A DNA stretch of 64,000 bases. Origin: Caryophanales bacterium (GTDB taxonomy: Bacteria > Bacillota_I > Bacilli_A > RF39 > UBA660). The stretch's first letter is position 1. The number at the start of each line of letters is the position of its first letter. The notes under the pieces were generated by a model. The model worked only from the letters and a program-made list of their open reading frames with translations. It did no database searches and was not told the origin of the DNA. The stretch covers positions 62,001-126,000 of the forward strand of contig JAEEVN010000001.1 of the NCBI GenBank assembly GCA_016290885.1, in the 5' to 3' direction. Positions 52,670 through 62,209 of the stretch are shown one piece after another. A program made the translations under genes and the position numbers.

Positions 52670-52697
52670 AAAAAAAAAGGAACTTTTTTGTTCCTTA
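52670..52697 (-). terminator. terminator of the ltaS-LCP operon
   Basis: Stem AAGGAAC / GTTCCTT with a 6-nt A loop and a 9-nt T tract on the minus strand, overlapping the LCP stop codon. Confidence 0.88.
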
Positions 52698-54752
52698 TTC
52701 TCCTCCTTCGCCTTCTCCAGAGTTTTCACCAGAGTTTTCTCCAGAGTTTTCTCCACCGGAATTTTCTCCTCCGCCAGATTCTCCTCCAGAATTTTCTCCA
52801 CCGGAATTTTCTCCTCCAGATTCGCCAGAGCCTCCACCTGAAGATTTAACGCAATTCCCATTACTATCTTCTTCATATCCATTCCATGTTGGACATACAC
52901 AAGTAACTTCATCATCACCTAATTCAAGTGGTTCTTCGCAAGTTGTCTTTTCCTTTTTCTTGCATACACCTTTTGAATCTTTTTCATATCCATTCTTACA
53001 TACGCAAGTTTGCCCATCTGCACCTAATTCTTCATTTTCACCAGTACATGTTTTCTTTTCTTCTGGTTTTGGATCTGGTTGTGGATAATTTTTAATACCA
53101 CCAAATTGATCTTTACCAATTATTTTAGGTTCATATGGTTGATCTATACTAAATGAGAATGAAGTTTCATATTCTTCTTCTTCTAAACCTAAGTTAATTC
53201 TCATAGCTTTAGTAATAGCATTTAAACTATTCATAGATGGTAAAAATTCATAAACTGGTGATCCTACTAAATAGTCATGTAGATGACCATCTGATCCATT
53301 TAAATATGTTCTTTGCATACTTATAACATCATTTGTATCAGTTAAAGAATCAGTTGATAATAAAACATCTTTAAATACATTATAGAATTCAAGAATTTGT
53401 TCTCTTGTTAAATCTGTTTCTAATGTTTTACCTACTGCATCTAATACTTGATAGAATTGATCTACAGTTCTTATATTCTTAGTGGCATTCATAATACCTT
53501 TAATAACTAATTGTTGATTTTGACCTCTTACAAAGTCATTTCTTTCACCTTGAGTATAATCAGGTCCACACCAATCATATGCTTTTCTGTTTCTAGCTAA
53601 AGCTAATGCTTGTACACCACTTAAATGTTGCCATCCAGCATCAACAAAGATTACTTCACTAAAACTTCTGTATTGGTTATTTTCACATATTCCATATGGG
53701 ACATCTACATCTATACCACCTAAAGCATCTACTAAGCTAATAACACCTTTAAAGTTCATCTTAGCATAGTAATCTATATGAATTCCTGTGAAATTTTCAA
53801 CAGTTTCTCTAACACATTCACTTCCATATGGATTAGCATGTGTTATTTTACTATATCTATTACCTGCACATGCAATTGGTACAAAAGTATCTCTTGGAAT
53901 GCTTAAAATAGTAGCATTTAATGTTTTAGGATTAAATGTTATTAATATGATTGTATCTCCAAGACCCCAATCATCTATTTCATCATCATTAGAATCAACA
54001 CCCATTACTAGAATTGTAAATGGTTCAGTAACACTTGTTCTTTTTCTTTTGCTACTCTTTGATTTCTTTGTTTCCATTTCTTCACTATGTGTGAATAATA
54101 CTTTTGTTTCATCTGCTATATGTTCAAAATCAGATCTTGTTTTATATCTTGAAATATAATTTCCAACTACAAAGCAAGCATCTATTTCACCTGAATATAA
54201 AGCATTTAACATTATAATATCTTCATCATAATCATAAATATTATCTAAATCTAAACCTTGTTCTTTTATGATTTTTTGCGCTAATACATAACCTTCTATA
54301 TCTTCTTCATTACTAATTATACCTATCTTCTTTTTCTTAACATTTTTCTTAGTTGTATCACCATCTTTTAATGCTATTAATTTAGAAGTATAAGTTGTAG
54401 TATTTTTATTTAATCCATCTAAGAACGACATAGTTCTTGATATAAAGGAACTTGCAAAATATTCACCAATTCCAAACACTAAAAGAACTAATATTAATAT
54501 AATAAATTTATATTTCTTTGGTTGTAATCTTAATGAAAAATTAAGTCTAACTACTAATATACAAATTATTACTAATATACCAATTCCAATATATCTAAGA
54601 ACATTTTCTATATTAGATAATTTTAATATATTCCATATAAAATAACCTGTTATACATAAGAACATACCTACAAATACACTAGATATAATTCCTATTATTT
54701 TATTGTTCTTTTTATTTATATTTTTTTCTTCAACAGTATACTTTTTTCTCAT
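52695..54752 (-). CDS. LytR-CpsA-Psr family ligase with solute-binding-like insert and Cys-rich, Gly/Ser/Glu tail
   Basis: A 685-residue envelope protein. Three membrane segments (about 20-42, 52-70, 80-100) precede a region resembling a solute-binding domain (KIGIISNEEDIEGYVLAQKI, SGEIDACFVVG). The catalytic LCP domain at about 245-420 has VMGVDSNDDEIDDWGLGDTI, SIPRDTFVPI, DALGGIDVDVP and ALARNRKAYDW...ERNDFVRGQNQQ. LCP enzymes attach teichoic acids or polysaccharides to peptidoglycan. The C-terminus has two Cys modules (CTGENEELGADGQTCVCKNG and CEEPLELGDDEVTCVCP), like those of the GLUG proteins, then about 45 residues of GENSG-type repeats. It is the last gene of the ltaS operon. Confidence 0.9.
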   Translation of the reverse strand: MRKKYTVEEKNINKKNNKIIGIISSVFVGMFLCITGYFIWNILKLSNIENVLRYIGIGILVIICILVVRLNFSLRLQPKKYKFIILILVLLVFGIGEYFASSFISRTMSFLDGLNKNTTTYTSKLIALKDGDTTKKNVKKKKIGIISNEEDIEGYVLAQKIIKEQGLDLDNIYDYDEDIIMLNALYSGEIDACFVVGNYISRYKTRSDFEHIADETKVLFTHSEEMETKKSKSSKRKRTSVTEPFTILVMGVDSNDDEIDDWGLGDTIILITFNPKTLNATILSIPRDTFVPIACAGNRYSKITHANPYGSECVRETVENFTGIHIDYYAKMNFKGVISLVDALGGIDVDVPYGICENNQYRSFSEVIFVDAGWQHLSGVQALALARNRKAYDWCGPDYTQGERNDFVRGQNQQLVIKGIMNATKNIRTVDQFYQVLDAVGKTLETDLTREQILEFYNVFKDVLLSTDSLTDTNDVISMQRTYLNGSDGHLHDYLVGSPVYEFLPSMNSLNAITKAMRINLGLEEEEYETSFSFSIDQPYEPKIIGKDQFGGIKNYPQPDPKPEEKKTCTGENEELGADGQTCVCKNGYEKDSKGVCKKKEKTTCEEPLELGDDEVTCVCPTWNGYEEDSNGNCVKSSGGGSGESGGENSGGENSGGESGGGENSGGENSGENSGENSGEGEGGE

Positions 54753-54753
54753 A

Positions 54754-55422
54754 TTACATAGCCTCCTGCATTCTAGCTACTGATAGCTTATTCATATCAG
54801 GAACTACTATAATAGTTGCATTGTGTTGGAAATCATCTTTATTCTTATATTCCCAACTAATATTTATCATATATCCTACTTGATCTTCAGTGAAGAATCC
54901 ACCTTCAAACATAGTATATGGAGATATTTCATCTATATCATCTATTTTAACTTTAGTTACTGTTGGTAAAGAACTATTAGATACATTATCTGTTACTAAA
55001 GAATGAACTTGTTTATACATTCCATCACGTGCTGCATCTATAAAATCTTTTTGGTATCCAACATAAACAAATTGAACACCTCCAACATCATTCTTACTAG
55101 TTTTATTGCTTAATGTAAAGAAATCTATTACAAATAATTTTGCTATAGTTTCAGCATACTTTTTATTATCTACTTCTTTAGCATTTAATATCTTCTTTAA
55201 TTCATTAAAGTTTTCTTTAAATAATTTAGTATCTGTATCACTTACAACGTAATCAACATCTTTATTTTTAATGGAATCTACTACTTTAGATTTAGTAGAT
55301 CTAGGTCTAATAAAGTTATTCCACACTATAAATCCACTTACTAGTATTGCTACTACTATTAAACATAAAAGTATTTTAGTAATCGGCTTTATTTTTGCTC
55401 TAGCCATCTTCTCTTTTTTCAT
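54754..55422 (-). CDS. membrane-anchored protein of unknown function
   Basis: A 222-residue protein with a basic N-terminus, one membrane segment (about 16-37, ILLCLIVVAILVSGFIVWNN) and a hydrophilic outer domain with mixed helix and strand (ETIAKLFVIDFFTLSNK, GVQFVYVGYQKDFIDAARDG, MINISWEYKNKDDF). No family is recognised. ATG 55422 is favoured by AGGAG 9 bp upstream; the frame extends to an ATG at 55464 inside ltaS. Its place between LTA synthase and an LCP ligase suggests a role in wall polymer assembly, which is inference from position. Confidence 0.75.
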   Translation of the reverse strand: MKKEKMARAKIKPITKILLCLIVVAILVSGFIVWNNFIRPRSTKSKVVDSIKNKDVDYVVSDTDTKLFKENFNELKKILNAKEVDNKKYAETIAKLFVIDFFTLSNKTSKNDVGGVQFVYVGYQKDFIDAARDGMYKQVHSLVTDNVSNSSLPTVTKVKIDDIDEISPYTMFEGGFFTEDQVGYMINISWEYKNKDDFQHNATIIVVPDMNKLSVARMQEAM

Positions 55423-55423
55423 A

Positions 55424-57451
55424 CTAATTTTCTCCTTCTGTTCTATCAAGTCTATCCTTTTCATTCTTTATTAAATCGTAAAGAATAATATCATTTGAAA
55501 CTTGTAATTTTTTAGATGTTATTTCATTGTTTCTAGTAATAGTATCACTATCTATAATAGCATCTGGATTAATAACTTTATATTCATCCTTTTGGCTATT
55601 ATAATAAATATCATTTGTTAACCAGTTACCATTAGGGAATGAGACTAAGTTATTATCTAAATCCATTACATCATTTCCTAATGCATATTTTGGTTTTAAT
55701 CCAAGCATATTACTTAAAGTAGGCATTACATCTACCATACCCATAGCAGTAGTAACAGTCTTATTAAACTGTCTATCTTTAGTCCAAATAATAAATGGTA
55801 CTGCTCTATTTATTTCATATTGATAATAATCAACTGGATAATAATTTTCATCTTCTTTATCTAAGATGCTATCATTTTCTTTATCATAGTTATATAGTCT
55901 TACATAATCACTCTTAGGTAATTTAGCATCATGATCTCCATAGATAACTACTATTGTATTATCAAGTAATCCAGCTTCATCTAATTCAGTGAATAATTCA
56001 CCAATTGCAGAATCTGCATAATGAACAGATTTAAAATAATTACCTAGTTTTGTATCTTCCATATATGGATATACTTTTTCAGTTCCATCTTCTGCTATTT
56101 CTTTAATACTTGTATCAAATTCACCATATTTATCTAATGCATCAAATGGTGTATGGTTACTAAGCATTATTAGTGTTGCAAAGAACTTACCATTTTCTTC
56201 ATATTCTTTCTTAATAATAGGTACTGTTTGTTTAAAGAATTCTTTATCTGATAAACCAAGTCCTATAACATTTTCATCATCTATTTCATAAGAAGATTTA
56301 CTATAGAATGTATTATATCCTAGACTCTTATGTAAATTATTTCTATTCCAGAAATCTCCATTATTAGCATGGAAAGAAAGTGTATTATAACCTTTTTCTT
56401 TTAACATTTTTTGAAGAGTTTCATATTCTCTATTCCAATAACTTACTGCAACTGAACCATTAGTTACTGGTAATAATGATGAAGCAAATGTAAATTCTGA
56501 ATCTGAACTTGTTCCAGATGATGCTTGTGAATAGAAATTACTGAAATATATACCTTCATCTTTTATTCTATTTAAATTAGGAGCAACTTTTTCTCCATTA
56601 AATTCTTGATTCATAGCAGCATTTTGAATACTTTCAGCATGAATAACAATTACATTCTTTCCTTCAAAAATATTAGTATATTCATTTTCATTTATTTCTA
56701 TTGTATTTTCTGTGTAATAATCTCTAAAATCTTTAGCAGCATTATCATATCCAAATAATGTGTTAAACTTAGCATCTAAACTCTTAAATAAGTCATTAAA
56801 TTGATATGTATATATACCAAATTTAGTTACTAAGAATTCTCTATTCCATTGTTTACTTAATCTTGAGAATTCAACTGATGTTACTGTTGCAAAGAATAAT
56901 GCATAAATAATAACACCGCAAATTAATGTTCCAGTAAATCTCTTCTTTCTATTTTCTTTAGGCCCTGCAAATTCTATATATTTTTTCTTTTTTAAATGGA
57001 TATGATATCCTACTAAGAATATTAATTGCCATAAGAAAATAAAATCTTTAAATTGTAAAACATTCTTTACTACTGCATCTCCTACATCTACTGTCATTAA
57101 TGAAACTGCAATTAATGAAAATGACGCAAAAGACATATAATATGTATAATATAATGAATTAACTATACATATTATATTAAATAGTATTGACACTACCATT
57201 AAGTAAGTAAATTGCTTTTTAGCTTTAAACAAATATACAAAAGATCCTAATATTAAAACTATTGCTAAATCCGCTAAAAAAGGTTTTATAGCAAAATAGT
57301 TATGAACAGTAAAAAATCTAAGTAAACATGCATTTATTAAGTTACCTATAACGAATGCTATAAACTGTTTATTAGTGCTTATATATTGTTTGTAATTAAA
57401 ATTTTTAACACCATCTTTTATTTTTATGAATGTATCTTTAATCTTTTTCAT
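55424..57451 (-). CDS. lipoteichoic acid synthase family protein (sulfatase-fold phosphoglycerol transferase)
   Basis: A 675-residue membrane enzyme. Five membrane segments occupy about 25-195, followed by an extracellular alkaline-phosphatase/sulfatase domain. Metal and catalytic residues are visible: NVIVIHAESIQNA with Glu273, ASSGTSSDSEFTF with nucleophile Thr314, the SYWNREYETLQKML region, MLSNHTPFD, and VIYGDHDAKLPKSD. The family polymerises glycerol phosphate from phosphatidylglycerol onto a glycolipid. ATG 57451 is used, with AGAGG upstream. It is the first gene of an operon with the unknown membrane protein and the LCP ligase. Confidence 0.93.
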   Translation of the reverse strand: MKKIKDTFIKIKDGVKNFNYKQYISTNKQFIAFVIGNLINACLLRFFTVHNYFAIKPFLADLAIVLILGSFVYLFKAKKQFTYLMVVSILFNIICIVNSLYYTYYMSFASFSLIAVSLMTVDVGDAVVKNVLQFKDFIFLWQLIFLVGYHIHLKKKKYIEFAGPKENRKKRFTGTLICGVIIYALFFATVTSVEFSRLSKQWNREFLVTKFGIYTYQFNDLFKSLDAKFNTLFGYDNAAKDFRDYYTENTIEINENEYTNIFEGKNVIVIHAESIQNAAMNQEFNGEKVAPNLNRIKDEGIYFSNFYSQASSGTSSDSEFTFASSLLPVTNGSVAVSYWNREYETLQKMLKEKGYNTLSFHANNGDFWNRNNLHKSLGYNTFYSKSSYEIDDENVIGLGLSDKEFFKQTVPIIKKEYEENGKFFATLIMLSNHTPFDALDKYGEFDTSIKEIAEDGTEKVYPYMEDTKLGNYFKSVHYADSAIGELFTELDEAGLLDNTIVVIYGDHDAKLPKSDYVRLYNYDKENDSILDKEDENYYPVDYYQYEINRAVPFIIWTKDRQFNKTVTTAMGMVDVMPTLSNMLGLKPKYALGNDVMDLDNNLVSFPNGNWLTNDIYYNSQKDEYKVINPDAIIDSDTITRNNEITSKKLQVSNDIILYDLIKNEKDRLDRTEGEN

Positions 57452-57470
57452 ATCTAACCTCTTAAAAAAA

Positions 57471-57479
57471 ATTATAACA
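57471..57479 (-). promoter_or_regulatory. extended -10 promoter of the ltaS operon
   Basis: TGTTATAAT on the minus strand, 19 bp upstream of the chosen start. Confidence 0.55.
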
Positions 57480-57483
57480 TTTT

Positions 57484-57523
57484 TCAAAACATTTTTAAAG
57501 AGTAAAACATTCCGTTTTACTCA
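57484..57523 (-). terminator. terminator of the receptor-YihY operon
   Basis: A 9-bp stem (GAGTAAAAC, 5-nt loop, GTTTTACTC) on the minus strand, followed by an imperfect T-rich stretch; the YihY stop codon is in the stem. Confidence 0.65.
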
Positions 57524-58332
57524 CCATTTGCTTTTCTATCTTCAATAGAATTTATAACCATTCCAATAACAAATACTTCTGCTATTATGAATATCCATAA
57601 CATCAAAACTAATATATTGGATGCACTACCATAATAATCATTATAAGATGCATAATTTGTTACATAAAATGAATATATAAATGTTACTGCTATCCAAAGT
57701 ACTGTAGTAAATAAAGAACCTTTATTTACACTTTTACTACTAATTTTTTTATTAGGAGTTAAAGTATATATCATCTTTATAAATAAGAATATTATAAAGA
57801 ATGATATTGGCCATCTAAATAAATTGATAAGCCATAATATCTTACTTCCTATAAATCCTATTTGTGGAATTATACTTATAATACTTAATATTTTATTACC
57901 AAATACTAGTATAAATATAATAAATATTAATAATCCTATTAATAATAATGTTATTATTAATGATTTAATTATATCTTGTATTGGATTTCTCTTAACACCA
58001 TATATATTATTTGCTGCTGCTATTATTGCTTTAGTACCACGTGATGCTAAATAAATAGCAGATATAGCAAGTAATATAACACTAAAGTCTAATGTTTTAC
58101 CTGTAAATAAAGGTAATATTAATTTACTTGTTGTAGCAGGTAAACTTAAACTTATAAAATTTAATATTTCATCATAAGATAATGAAAAAGCAGATGCTAC
58201 CATTCCAAATATTAGAATAATTGGAATAGATGAAAGCAGTAAAAAGAAAGACAGATGTCCTGGTAAAACGGACATTACTGGCTTTCCTAAAACTTCAATT
58301 ATTTCTTTTATTAAAAGTTTTATTTGCTTCAT
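57517..58332 (-). CDS. YihY/BrkB family inner membrane protein
   Basis: A 271-residue polytopic protein with about six membrane segments. Family features are the N-terminal amphipathic helix, HLSFFLLLSSIPIILIFGMV, AIYLASRGTKAIIAAANNIY and IYTLTPNKKISSKSVNKGSL. The family is widespread and its function is unresolved; an old ribonuclease BN annotation is not supported. It follows the receptor gene by 14 bp. Confidence 0.9.
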   Translation of the reverse strand: MKQIKLLIKEIIEVLGKPVMSVLPGHLSFFLLLSSIPIILIFGMVASAFSLSYDEILNFISLSLPATTSKLILPLFTGKTLDFSVILLAISAIYLASRGTKAIIAAANNIYGVKRNPIQDIIKSLIITLLLIGLLIFIIFILVFGNKILSIISIIPQIGFIGSKILWLINLFRWPISFFIIFLFIKMIYTLTPNKKISSKSVNKGSLFTTVLWIAVTFIYSFYVTNYASYNDYYGSASNILVLMLWIFIIAEVFVIGMVINSIEDRKANGE

Positions 58333-58346
58333 TTATATCACACCCA

Positions 58347-60407
58347 CTATTTATCTTCGGTATTTAATTCTTTATTTGTTTTAACCTCTAATACTGCTTC
58401 ATTAATAGCATCATCAATAGTTTTTACATCATCAGTAATCATACTATATCCAAGTGTTGCACCAAAACCATATGGAATATTCTTAAATTCTTTATTTAAT
58501 TTTCTCATATAAGCTATTACTTTATTTTCTTCATAACCTATTAAATAAATTAAGAATTCATCACCATTAGTTCTAACTATATCACTTTGCTCTAATTGAT
58601 TATTCATTAATATATTAGCAGCTTTTTTAAGAACCATATCTCCTTCATTATGACCATATACATCATTAATATGTCCAACTTTATTAACATTAACAATTAT
58701 AATAGCTTGTGGATAAATCTTATTATTTTGCCACTTATCATAATTCTTATTTAAATAATGTCTATTCTTTAATGATGTTAAACTATCTACATATTTTAAT
58801 CTATCATTCTTACTTATTTTATTATTTTTATATTTAATTCTAATATATATTAAACTAATACCAAGTAATACAAATAAACCTACTAAAATATATGCAAAAG
58901 TTAAATCTATTTTCTTACTATCTTTAGATAATTTAACTTTAGCTCTAGCCATATATAGATCTGGTTCTATATTAGATATGTAGAATTTAAATAATCCTAC
59001 AAATCCTTTATTATTACTCTTATTTAATACTATAAAGTTATAATCTAAATCATCAAGTTCAGCTTCATAAACAACCTTGAAATTATCTAATTCACTATTT
59101 CTATAATTATCATAAACATTATAATCTAAAACAACTATACTATTTTCATTTAATGAATTAAATAATGAACCTGGTTTCTTATATTCTTTTACCTTAGCAT
59201 TATAATTTTTAGCTATATAATCAGATAATTTATTATCTATCATAGATACTTCTTGACTCTTTAAACTCTTTAATGATGGAACTATAGTCTTAGTATTATT
59301 AATATGTGTTAATACTATTACTTTCTCTTTATAAGGAGAAACTGTTTCATCGAAATTATTTGCTAAATCTTCAAAATTATAATAATTAAATGCTAAATCT
59401 ACTTTTTCATTATTTAAATTAGTAGTTAAATCTCTAACAGAATTGTATTCTTTAATCTTGAAAGTAATATTCATACTCTTAGCAAAACCATCAAGGATTT
59501 CACTATTATATCCTATAAAATCATCATTTATCTTAGATTCATATGGTAAGTTTTTAACATATCCATAAGTATATTCTTTACCTTCAAAATTAGCAATTGT
59601 AACATCATCTATTTCTTTAGATTCAAAATATAATGTTAATAATCTCTTGTTATAAGATTTCTCTAATTCTTGCTTACTCCATCTTGTATAATATTTTCTA
59701 AATATACTATTTAAAGTAGCATCTCCTCCAGATATTTTTAATATACATTCATTATTTAATTCAGGTATATTATGAACAATATAGAAGTTATTAGCAAATA
59801 CTTGATTAATATATAATGTCTTTGGTATAACAGCATATACTATATCATTAGCTTGTAATGCTTCTATAATAGAATCTATATTATTATATGAATTATATAT
59901 AATACTATCATTATCTTCAAATGAAGATCTAATAGCATCTACATCTGTTTCTAATGCTCCAATAGTAACATTTCTTAAATCTGTAATTTTTTTAACTCTT
60001 TTATTATCTTTACTAACAAGTGCATATTCATCACTATAGAATAATAATTCTGAATCTTTTAAATTAGAATTACTCTTCATTTCAAATGAATATTTACTTT
60101 CAGGTGTTGCTCCGAATTTATAAGGAACCATATTAAATTTAATACCTGTTTCTTTTGAAAAGTCATTTAAGAAATCAAAGAATACACCCTCACCATCTTC
60201 TCCAAATATAGGGATATCATTTAATACTGATACATCAACTGTTGTATTCTTATTCTTTTCAATCCATCTTTTTTCTAATAAGGAGAACACACCTTTTTCA
60301 TTGTTACTTTTATTAACTGAAATAGCAATAGCAATTATGGCAGCAAGTAATATTAAAGGTAAAGCAATTAATAATATTTTCTTTTTATTAATATTTTTCT
60401 TCTTCAT
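58347..60407 (-). CDS. membrane receptor: tandem solute-binding (SBP_bac_3-like) domains plus GGDEF-like domain
   Basis: A 686-residue sensor. The N-terminal membrane segment (10-30) is followed by two extracellular solute-binding-like modules (about 50-265 and 275-490), a second membrane segment (about 508-528) and a cytosolic GGDEF-type domain (about 545-686). The GGDEF part has YVDSLTSLKNRHYL, HINDVYGHNEGD and the signature as NGDEF (614-618). The metal-binding Asp positions of the canonical DxDxFK motif read VNVNKVGH, that is Asn for Asp. Diguanylate cyclase activity is therefore doubtful; the domain may instead bind GTP or sense nucleotide. Confidence 0.85.
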   Translation of the reverse strand: MKKKNINKKKILLIALPLILLAAIIAIAISVNKSNNEKGVFSLLEKRWIEKNKNTTVDVSVLNDIPIFGEDGEGVFFDFLNDFSKETGIKFNMVPYKFGATPESKYSFEMKSNSNLKDSELLFYSDEYALVSKDNKRVKKITDLRNVTIGALETDVDAIRSSFEDNDSIIYNSYNNIDSIIEALQANDIVYAVIPKTLYINQVFANNFYIVHNIPELNNECILKISGGDATLNSIFRKYYTRWSKQELEKSYNKRLLTLYFESKEIDDVTIANFEGKEYTYGYVKNLPYESKINDDFIGYNSEILDGFAKSMNITFKIKEYNSVRDLTTNLNNEKVDLAFNYYNFEDLANNFDETVSPYKEKVIVLTHINNTKTIVPSLKSLKSQEVSMIDNKLSDYIAKNYNAKVKEYKKPGSLFNSLNENSIVVLDYNVYDNYRNSELDNFKVVYEAELDDLDYNFIVLNKSNNKGFVGLFKFYISNIEPDLYMARAKVKLSKDSKKIDLTFAYILVGLFVLLGISLIYIRIKYKNNKISKNDRLKYVDSLTSLKNRHYLNKNYDKWQNNKIYPQAIIIVNVNKVGHINDVYGHNEGDMVLKKAANILMNNQLEQSDIVRTNGDEFLIYLIGYEENKVIAYMRKLNKEFKNIPYGFGATLGYSMITDDVKTIDDAINEAVLEVKTNKELNTEDK

Positions 60408-60415
60408 ATTATCTC

Positions 60416-60913
60416 CTAATTATTTGTCCAAACGATTCCAGAATTTTTCTTATTACTATAACCCATTATTGGGAATTCATATTTTGTTTCTTCTTTTCCT
60501 TCTTCGACAGTAACTTTAATTCCTTCTTCTTTCTTTTTACTAATCATATATTGTATATCATAATAACCTTTTACTTTTTCTGTAAAAGCTCCTAATGATT
60601 CATTAGCAATATTTTTTGCATCATCTTTAGAAACATCCTTCTTAACATTAAAAATTACATCTATTCTTTTTCCATGTACTTCTATTTTGCAAGATGAAAC
60701 TTGTTCTTTTCCTTTTATTAAATCAATAACTTTCTTTTGTGCTTTTTCACTAAATTTATAATTTTCAATTCCTTCTAATCTATCGCCATATTTACTAGTT
60801 CCTGATGAAGGTAAAACTAATTTTAGAACTACAGCACCAAAAGCAATTACAATTATTAAAGCTAAAATATAGCCTATTTTTATTCTTCTTTTTGGTCTTT
60901 TATTATTTTCCAT
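60416..60913 (-). CDS. membrane-anchored protein of unknown function
   Basis: A 165-residue protein with a basic N-terminus, one membrane segment (about 13-33, YILALIIVIAFGAVVLKLVL) and an outer alpha/beta domain (KISEKAQKK-like helix, then CKIEVHGKRIDVIFNVKKDV). No family is recognised. It is the first gene of the operon with the receptor and yihY, 8 bp before the receptor. Confidence 0.75.
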   Translation of the reverse strand: MENNKRPKRRIKIGYILALIIVIAFGAVVLKLVLPSSGTSKYGDRLEGIENYKFSEKAQKKVIDLIKGKEQVSSCKIEVHGKRIDVIFNVKKDVSKDDAKNIANESLGAFTEKVKGYYDIQYMISKKKEEGIKVTVEEGKEETKYEFPIMGYSNKKNSGIVWTNN

Positions 60914-60954: not shown

Positions 60955-60991
60955 ATAAAAAAACAATAATCAATAAGAATTGATTATTGAT
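60955..60991 (-). terminator. terminator of the Pro/Glu-rich protein operon
   Basis: A 10-bp stem (CAATAATCAA, 6-nt loop, TTGATTATTG) and a T tract on the minus strand, just past the stop codon. Confidence 0.85.
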
Positions 60992-61947
60992 TATGCTGCT
61001 TTATTAATTAATGTTTTTGCCTCTCTTTTAGAAAGTAATACATCATTACTTTGCATTGGCATTACTCTATGTGGTTTATCTCCTGTTTTTACATCAGTCA
61101 TTCCTGCATACAAAGGAGTAACTACTGTATATTTTTTAGCATTATCAACTACTGGAGTTTCTACTGCTTGTACTGGAATATTATCTTCTTTTACAAGTAC
61201 ATCAGGTTTGAATTCCATAGTAGGTTCTTCTACTTGTGGAGTTACTTCACTAGTAACAGGTTCTACTGGTGTAACAGGTTCTACTACAGGAGCAACTGGT
61301 TCTACTATAGGTTGTGGAACAGTAACTGGATCTACAACAGGTGCAGATACTGGTTCAGGTACTATAACAGGATCTGGTTGTACTGCTGCAGGAGTTGGTT
61401 CAACAATTGGTTGAGCAACTACTTCAGGTTCAACTTTTGCATCACCATTATCAACTATTGGTTCTTTTGATTCTTCAGCTACAGTTTGTGGTACTGATGC
61501 TAAAAGATCTTCTATAGAAGTAATACTTTGTTCTGCTGGAACTGAATCCATATCAATATTTGATACACTTACTGGAGTAAATGTTTCTTCTGGAACATCA
61601 GTTAATGTTTCTTCCTTTGGTTCTTCTTTAGTCTCTGATTCTACTGATACTTCTCCAATAGGTGCTTCAGGAACAAATTCATCAGTCATTACTTCTTCAG
61701 GTTCTTTTTCTAATGTATCTTCCTCAGCAACTATATCAGAAGAATTAACTTCTTTTAATATTTCATCTGCTTCAGGGATAGCTTCAACAACTTGTGGTAA
61801 TACTTCTTCCTTTTTATTAGTTTCAGTATTTTCTCTTATAGCAGTTAATTCTGCAATTATTTTATCTAATTTTTGTTCAATAGAAGAAGTATTAGTTGCT
61901 TCAGCTGCTACTGCACCAACTGGTTCAAAATCAAATGAAGTTTCCAT
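60991..61947 (-). CDS. Pro/Val/Glu-rich low-complexity protein
   Basis: A 318-residue acidic protein without signal or membrane segment. A short coiled coil lies near the N-terminus (SIEQKLDKIIAELTAIRENT). A long disordered region follows, with the Pro-Val repeats strongest at about 180-245 (VVDPVTVPQPIVEPVAPVVE). The compact C-terminus (YTVVTPLYAGMTDVKTGDKP and LLSKREAKTLINKA) looks like the conserved functional part. ATG 61947 is chosen, with GGAGAGGTG upstream. It overlaps neither domain nor stop of the DUF1292-like gene in the same frame and is co-transcribed with it. Confidence 0.75.
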   Translation of the reverse strand: METSFDFEPVGAVAAEATNTSSIEQKLDKIIAELTAIRENTETNKKEEVLPQVVEAIPEADEILKEVNSSDIVAEEDTLEKEPEEVMTDEFVPEAPIGEVSVESETKEEPKEETLTDVPEETFTPVSVSNIDMDSVPAEQSITSIEDLLASVPQTVAEESKEPIVDNGDAKVEPEVVAQPIVEPTPAAVQPDPVIVPEPVSAPVVDPVTVPQPIVEPVAPVVEPVTPVEPVTSEVTPQVEEPTMEFKPDVLVKEDNIPVQAVETPVVDNAKKYTVVTPLYAGMTDVKTGDKPHRVMPMQSNDVLLSKREAKTLINKAA

Positions 61948-61948
61948 A

Positions 61949-62209
61949 TTACACCTCTCCTTTCGATAAATCTGCAATGGCGTCTTTTACTTTTTGCCAT
62001 TCTGCGTCATCTGTTATTGTATCAAAGTAATATTCTCCATTATCTACTCTTACTCTTGATACATAATCTTTTATATTATTGTCTTGATCCTTTTGATTAA
62101 AAGTATAAACTGCATAATCTTGATTATTTTCTTCTAGTCTGAAAATAGTTATTAAATTAGCTACTACTTTTTGACCTTTTGGATTAACAATTGTAACTTT
62201 TGTTTCCAT
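61949..62209 (-). CDS. small DUF1292-like protein
   Basis: An 86-residue acidic protein. The order of segments (KVVANLITIFRLEENNQDYA, VYTFNQKDQDNN, VSRVRVDNGEYYFDTITDD, AEWQKVKDAIADL) fits the DUF1292 family. A strong AAGGAGG precedes the ATG and an extended -10 lies upstream. It leads a two-gene operon with the Pro/Glu-rich gene. Confidence 0.75.
   Translation of the reverse strand: METKVTIVNPKGQKVVANLITIFRLEENNQDYAVYTFNQKDQDNNIKDYVSRVRVDNGEYYFDTITDDAEWQKVKDAIADLSKGEV

Follow-up and report, generated by a model that had tools for sequence, protein, structure and literature searches.

A membrane receptor with a degenerate GGDEF domain, conserved beside a YihY-family gene in RF39 bacteria

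What does a GGDEF domain do in a membrane receptor when its metal-binding motif is altered and its genome holds no other part of a cyclic-di-GMP (c-di-GMP) network? The question is raised by a locus in the window, by which we mean the whole 64,000-nucleotide stretch of DNA analyzed, from a bacterium of RF39. RF39 is described as a group of genome-reduced Bacilli (PMC12306168), and most of its species are predicted to have a peptidoglycan wall; standard teichoic acid synthesis is predicted to be absent in lineages that may not include RF39 (PMC10868615). The close relatives of the window are metagenome-assembled genomes (MAGs), several of them from ruminant gut samples.

The first-pass annotation of the window had described two extracellular solute-binding-like domains joined to a GGDEF domain, and this layout was borne out by the open reading frame together with Pfam and profile matches that agree (Table 1). 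In the Pfam search of the receptor, GGDEF scored 65 bits over residues 539-678 and SBP_bac_3 34 bits, with no match in the first ectodomain and none to EAL or DHH/DHHA1 in the protein. Profiles of 24 sequences matched ectodomain 1 to amino-acid-binding proteins (AncQR 4zv1, E 2.2e-7), and ectodomain 2 to the bacterial glutamate-receptor homologue 2pyy (E 4.6e-9), BvgS 4q0c (E 7e-7) and EvgS 9ilw (E 5e-5). We take the tandem flytrap architecture of the BvgS and EvgS sensors to be two solute-binding-like domains followed by a membrane helix, as in the receptor, whereas their output is a histidine kinase and that of the receptor a pseudo-GGDEF domain. The model of the GGDEF domain (pLDDT 90) superposes on PleD 2v0n with Z 20.1 and rmsd 2.2 over 157 residues. 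The full-length receptor model, with helices at 8-38 and 503-528, was kept out of claims about fold because of its low confidence (pLDDT 60.5, pTM 0.34). A short basic stretch forms the N-terminus, and basic residues are also found directly after the second helix.

Table 1. Receptor gene, receptor domains and motifs, and neighboring features, in window coordinates
Feature	Coordinates	Strand	Basis or remark
Receptor gene	58347..60407	(-)	ATG start, 686 aa; TM, two SBP/VFT domains, TM, degenerate GGDEF
N-terminal membrane helix, about residues 11-32	60312..60377	(-)	predicted from sequence
First extracellular solute-binding-like domain, residues 53-262	59622..60251	(-)	profile match AncQR 4zv1
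Second extracellular solute-binding-like domain, residues 277-490	58938..59579	(-)	profile matches 2pyy, BvgS, EvgS; Pfam SBP_bac_3
Second membrane helix, about residues 503-524	58836..58901	(-)	predicted from sequence
Degenerate GGDEF domain, residues 536-680	58368..58802	(-)	Pfam; structure model superposed on PleD
VNVN, residues 572-575	58683..58694	(-)	Asn573 at metal Asp (PleD D327), Asn575 at PleD D329
NGDEF, residues 614-618	58554..58568	(-)	Asp616 at second metal ligand position; family norm DGNEF
165-aa one-helix membrane protein	60416..60913	(-)	8 nt upstream of receptor
YihY/BrkB-family membrane protein	57517..58332	(-)	14 nt downstream of receptor; Pfam Virul_fac_BrkB 148 bits, TIGR00765 above cut-off
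LtaS-like sulfatase-fold protein	55424..57487	(-)	Pfam Sulfatase; NCBIfam LtaS 299 bits, below 970-bit cut-off
236-aa secreted or anchored protein, no function assigned	54754..55464	(-)	ORF
LytR-CpsA-Psr (LCP) protein, last gene of putative operon	52695..54752	(-)	Pfam LytR_cpsA_psr
Terminator-like hairpin directly behind LCP gene	52677..52696	(-)	hairpin scan

Translation of the window DNA gives AIIIVNVNKVGHINDVYGHNEGD...RTNGDEF, and both the NGDEF signature and the upstream VNVNKVG motif noted at first pass are read from the DNA. The alignment to solved cyclases is ungapped across the motif (with DosC, VNVNK lies over IDVDK and RTNGDEF over RYGGDEF). For the receptor positions we use the PleD residue names and roles (D327, D329, E370, K442) as we assume them to be. 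The active-cyclase pair of acidic metal ligands (PleD D327 and E370) is incomplete in the window protein, which has N573 and D616. In YfiN, the Mg ligands are described as D287, the carbonyl of S288 and D330 of the GGDEF signature (PMC7825114), and by the DosC alignment and the PleD superposition these correspond to N573, V574 and D616. The earlier statement that the magnesium ligands had been removed stands in part: Asn573 replaces the Asp of one side-chain ligand, but the other, Asp616, is present, and Asn575, on the YfiN comparison, replaces an Asp that does not serve as a metal ligand. A shift that would let another position supply the metal Asp had been envisaged as an alternative; for the window protein it is ruled out by the ungapped alignment, and the structure model agrees. 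A sequencing error is an unlikely source of N573, since the residue recurs in L152, an independent MAG contig 91% identical; D573 stands in the remaining 8 near relatives found. The signature GG[DE]EF is not matched by NGDEF, nor the RxxD I-site by E606-Q-S-D609. The window protein retains the guanine-binding N581 and D590 and the phosphate lysine K679, which is at the PleD K442 position according to the structure-alignment ranges and the control GGDEF alignment.

The receptor was present in 137 of the 145 genomes of the same family (138 with G036, which was not counted since its match spans GGDEF residues only) and in 369/385 genomes of the order (E 1e-30; by genus 114/117), the order as sampled consisting of that one family only. 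Among the matches listed for 296 genomes sampled across the class, the strongest from outside the family reached 64 bits and covered the GGDEF domain only, and none of those from outside was a full-length copy. Three sets were compared: an alignment of 121 copies (the window and 120 others; of the 137, 16 were not included, 8 of these being fragments), a tree of 150 receptors enriched in the window's kin, and, as controls, 39 other GGDEF domains from 38 regions of the same family.

Of the 121 copies, 111 have Asp and 8 have Asn at position 573, 118 have Asn at position 575, and at position 616, where the signature normally provides its metal ligand, 112 have Asn and 5 have Asp. The signatures are DGNEF (83), NGNEF (23), SGNEF (5), NGDEF (4) and six others, with Asp at position 614 in 88 copies. 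An acid at 614, as in DGNEF, is not a general substitute for 616, as the 23 NGNEF copies have neither. The window protein is the family norm swapped, with N573 and D616 in place of D573 and N616, and acids stand at both metal positions in 14/150 receptors versus 39/39 other GGDEF domains of the family. Judged from these residues, cyclase activity appears to have been lost in most of the family; the loss suggested at first pass from the window protein is thus supported at the family scale, mainly through the signature ligand and not through 573, which mostly stays Asp. The 14 receptors with both acids, which belong mostly to the window's own genus, combine NGDEF with an Asp or a Glu at position 573, and some of them might therefore still be enzymes. 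In that genus (the window and L152-L160), the signature is NGDEF against DGNEF in the family, with the acid back at 616, and Asp573 is absent only from the window and L152.

The pocket is conserved throughout the alignment: N581, E617 and R612 in 121/121, D590 in 119/121 and K679 in 118/121, and the K679 position is Lys in 13/13 other GGDEF domains that extend to it. The I-site columns 605 and 606 are mostly Leu/Ile and Glu/Asp, with Arg in 5/121 at 605 and outside the six commonest residues at 606; as far as the aligned residues tell, the I-site arginine of RxxD is missing from the receptor family. Specific and conserved replacements (Asn616 in 112/121, Asn575 in 118/121), which do not look like random decay, and the retention of E617, K679, N581 and D590 could point to an altered enzyme, in which an order-wide site DLNN...[DN]GNEF, with one acid and one Asn at the metal site, carries out a new reaction, for instance hydrolysis of nucleotides or formation of a different product. 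However, the 150-sequence tree needs a minimum of nine changes at 573 and of seven at 616, a loose pattern for an active site, and the window protein has the two residues swapped, so we consider new chemistry quite improbable. The tree gave no support for a coupled D/N exchange at 573 and 616: among 8 independent pairs that differ at 573, 616 went the same way in 3 and showed no difference in 5 (sign test, median p 0.25).

Among the 121 copies, the GGDEF domain has a mean pairwise identity of 63.6%, the two ectodomains reach 32.6% and 31.6%, and the region of the second helix 21%, while the 39 control GGDEF domains have a mean identity of 32.0%, and the operon partners 38.7% (YihY) and 28.6% (the upstream 165-aa protein). 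The apparently dead GGDEF domain is the best-conserved part of its operon. In four comparisons with the window's kin, dN/dS of the GGDEF domain was 0.04 (against L152) and 0.09-0.12 (against L153, L154 and L159). Among the columns conserved in at least 95% of copies, twenty are common to GGDEF domains generally and twenty are receptor-specific (found in less than half of other GGDEF domains), for example K547, W559, Q567, Q604, Y621, Y633 and N669. Identity, dN/dS and conserved columns all show strong constraint, which is not what a decaying domain would be expected to show; the twenty receptor-specific columns suggest a dedicated surface on it. Another reading is that the GGDEF fold is a structural scaffold only, a dimerization or docking module without nucleotide whose pocket residues are kept for folding. 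The receptor-specific invariant residues are spread over much of the domain, the signature ligand is Asn in 112/121 copies and the frequent Asp614 may repel phosphates, which would suit a scaffold, but conservation of N581, D590 and K679 at 98-100% goes beyond the needs of a docking surface and the K679 position is also Lys in all 13 other GGDEF domains that extend to it, so that we regard a pure scaffold as rather unlikely.

The first-pass annotation had also held c-di-GMP signaling to be uncommon in this type of organism and had proposed a genome search for GGDEF, EAL and PilZ proteins. In the window's own genome (1.11 Mb) the search returned the receptor as the only GGDEF domain, with 0 EAL, 0 PilZ, 0 HD_5 and 0 c-di-GMP-I riboswitches, and other c-di-GMP parts are scarce in the family as well, in agreement with that view. 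EAL was found in 16, HD_5 in 20 and PilZ in 0 of the 145 family genomes. In 93/145 no GGDEF domain other than that of the receptor was found, and of these 92 are without EAL and 79 have neither EAL nor HD_5; an additional GGDEF domain above 100 bits is present in 25/145. The c-di-GMP-I riboswitch RF01051 occurs in 8/141 genomes, six of the eight with further GGDEF domains; a c-di-GMP-II riboswitch search gave no match, its controls being silent too. G001 has two c-di-GMP-I riboswitches with the receptor as its only GGDEF domain, while G114 carries a single riboswitch but no GGDEF domain at all, and both cases argue against a simple picture of a family without c-di-GMP. One of the G001 riboswitches is located at L252 8327-8409 (C4:58826-58908). 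A 736-aa ORF with GGDEF and HD_5 (HD-GYP type) is found in L221 (G036 C4:142000-147000), from a 98%-complete genome without the receptor operon.

Two readings would return the receptor to c-di-GMP signaling. Most members of the window's genus have Asp573 and Asp616, and G001 has riboswitches without another cyclase, as would be expected of a weakly active diguanylate cyclase, at least in this genus; yet the window protein is without Asp573 and its own genome without EAL, HD_5, PilZ or c-di-GMP-I riboswitch, and we consider residual cyclase activity highly unlikely. Alternatively, the domain could bind, without making it, c-di-GMP from other cyclases or from neighbors, in favor of which are the genomes with another GGDEF domain above 100 bits (25/145) or with c-di-GMP-I riboswitches (8/141). 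This was one of three roles suggested at first pass and comes out as the weakest of them, since the RxxD arginine is missing, most genomes of the family (that of the window among them) contain no further GGDEF domain or c-di-GMP component, and PilZ is absent from all 145; we judge it very improbable.

The 165-aa gene is directly upstream in 119/121 loci (median gap 8 nt) and YihY is found in 114/121, in 113 within 300 nt (median gap 9 nt), forming an order-wide tight operon of three genes: the 165-aa gene, the receptor and YihY. Further genes are less constant: the LtaS-like gene in 51/121 loci, the 236-aa gene in 43/121, the LCP gene in 16/121 (on the opposite strand in 10 of those), and upstream genes that we presume from their sequence to be gatB-like and gatA-like in 49/121 and 46/121. 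The LtaS-like protein is a probable polyglycerolphosphate or lipoteichoic acid (LTA) synthase. The hairpin scan of the region found 1 hairpin versus 1.7 expected by chance, and a terminator is plausible because of its position behind the LCP gene; the promoter scan of the region showed no excess over shuffles. The 165-aa protein had no Pfam, NCBIfam or PDB match, and DUF386 and other weak Pfam matches for its family were rejected as below cut-off and inconsistent between members. This family has the consensus YGNRLDGI...YDIQ...FPIIGYK (60416-60913 (-) and L032-L151) and occurs in 134/145 genomes.

The 8/145 genomes without the receptor (G003, G013, G018, G036, G076, G083, G114 and G123) are all without the 165-aa gene and YihY as well. 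This shared absence is confounded, because the genes adjoin and one lost or unassembled block explains it as well as shared function. Of the 137 genomes with the receptor, 3 have no 165-aa gene (G118, which has an odd split receptor, G126, and G031, whose locus is at a contig end) and 3 have no YihY (G019, G047, in which the receptor is also cut, and G121). YihY is kept on another contig in 5 genomes of the 121 loci (L109, L115, L118, L119 and L127), and, since it is also absent in G019 and G121, linkage of the receptor and YihY is not strictly required.

We propose, with a probability of roughly 55%, that the receptor is a pseudo-cyclase switch, probably guanine-nucleotide-binding, which acts on YihY and envelope assembly. 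The tandem flytrap ectodomains, with or through the 165-aa partner, would sense something outside the cell, and the second membrane helix would relay the signal to the GGDEF domain. This domain, no longer making c-di-GMP, would still use its former substrate pocket to bind a guanine nucleotide, and would change its dimer state or partner contact; the output would be the neighboring YihY, probably handling a lipid or a lipid-linked envelope precursor. The proposal builds on the observed domains, ligand loss, selection on the GGDEF domain, order-wide operon, shared absence and scarcity of c-di-GMP parts, to which it would add nucleotide binding, the direction of signaling, YihY as target and the envelope role. 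Among the roles suggested at first pass, a pseudoenzyme acting through a partner fits best, given the tight, order-wide operon that joins the receptor to YihY and the small 165-aa membrane protein, and the strong constraint on a dead domain. GTP sensing, the third role, is a possibility favored by the retained pocket residues N581, D590 and K679; Asp614 (88/121), where the GTP phosphates pass, might hinder triphosphate binding.

We take YhjD to be a member of the YihY family. In E. coli, YhjD is described as co-purifying with LptB and binding core-lipid A (PMC3219608), and by analogy this suggests that YihY handles lipid. PDB entries 9g85 and 9g86 are listed as PleD with ppGpp and pppGpp, and alarmones are therefore possible ligands. 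More tentatively, and as an extension that we ourselves find doubtful, the former active site may be occupied by GTP, GDP or ppGpp, which along with the outside signal would gate a YihY-type lipid transporter, giving an envelope switch independent of c-di-GMP.

Parts of this design are found in known systems. GdpS and GdpP of Firmicutes are, we presume, membrane GGDEF proteins not tied to c-di-GMP synthesis, as is the receptor. However, the receptor scores 38.7 against the GdpS model (NCBIfam NF047872) with a cut-off of 400, and it has no DHH/DHHA1 domain, unlike the c-di-AMP phosphodiesterase GdpP. PdeB of Shewanella is alike in its inactive GGDEF domain, degenerate I-site, expected GTP pocket and action on a partner, its GGDEF domain being reported to bind GTP (about 17 uM) and the partner HubP; it is a PAS-GGDEF-EAL phosphodiesterase within a c-di-GMP network, however, whereas the receptor genome has no EAL or network (PMC9061725). 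FimX is likewise reported to sense GTP through a degenerate GGDEF domain, but acts via its own EAL domain and has the signature GDSIF (PMC8846402). PopA and PelD share a GGDEF fold without cyclase activity, but are described as binding c-di-GMP at RxxD, which the receptor does not have (PMC10333796).

Within the literature searched, as titles and the starts of abstracts with few subscription papers, none describes this receptor and none combines GGDEF and RF39; the name YihY returned nothing on YihY biochemistry there, while the name YhjD did yield. Dead GGDEF receptors are already known; what is new is one that is order-wide, largely outside a c-di-GMP network and tied to YihY. Inactive GGDEF domains are usually regarded as side-parts of c-di-GMP networks, and here a receptor carrying one is present almost throughout a set of well over 100 genera, whose small genomes mostly lack the rest of the network, a clean natural case of the role of the GGDEF fold when it is not making c-di-GMP. 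Moreover, the widespread YihY/BrkB family, whose function is unsettled, gains a constant partner in this order, and control of the envelope is hinted at in bacteria that have been seen chiefly in metagenomes. If the envelope switch is true, it would be a signaling complex nearly defining an order of genome-reduced gut bacteria and absent from neighboring lineages.

Upstream of the operon, 60991-62209 (-) holds an acidic proline-rich 328-aa ORF, without a counterpart among the 120 loci, which overlaps an 86-aa ORF that we presume to be DUF1292-like. In addition, a protein similar to the window LCP protein is encoded on the opposite strand at L107 13724-15796, and the window LCP protein itself (52695-54752 (-)) has, before its LCP domain, a stretch like half a solute-binding domain (Phosphonate-bd E 0.017).
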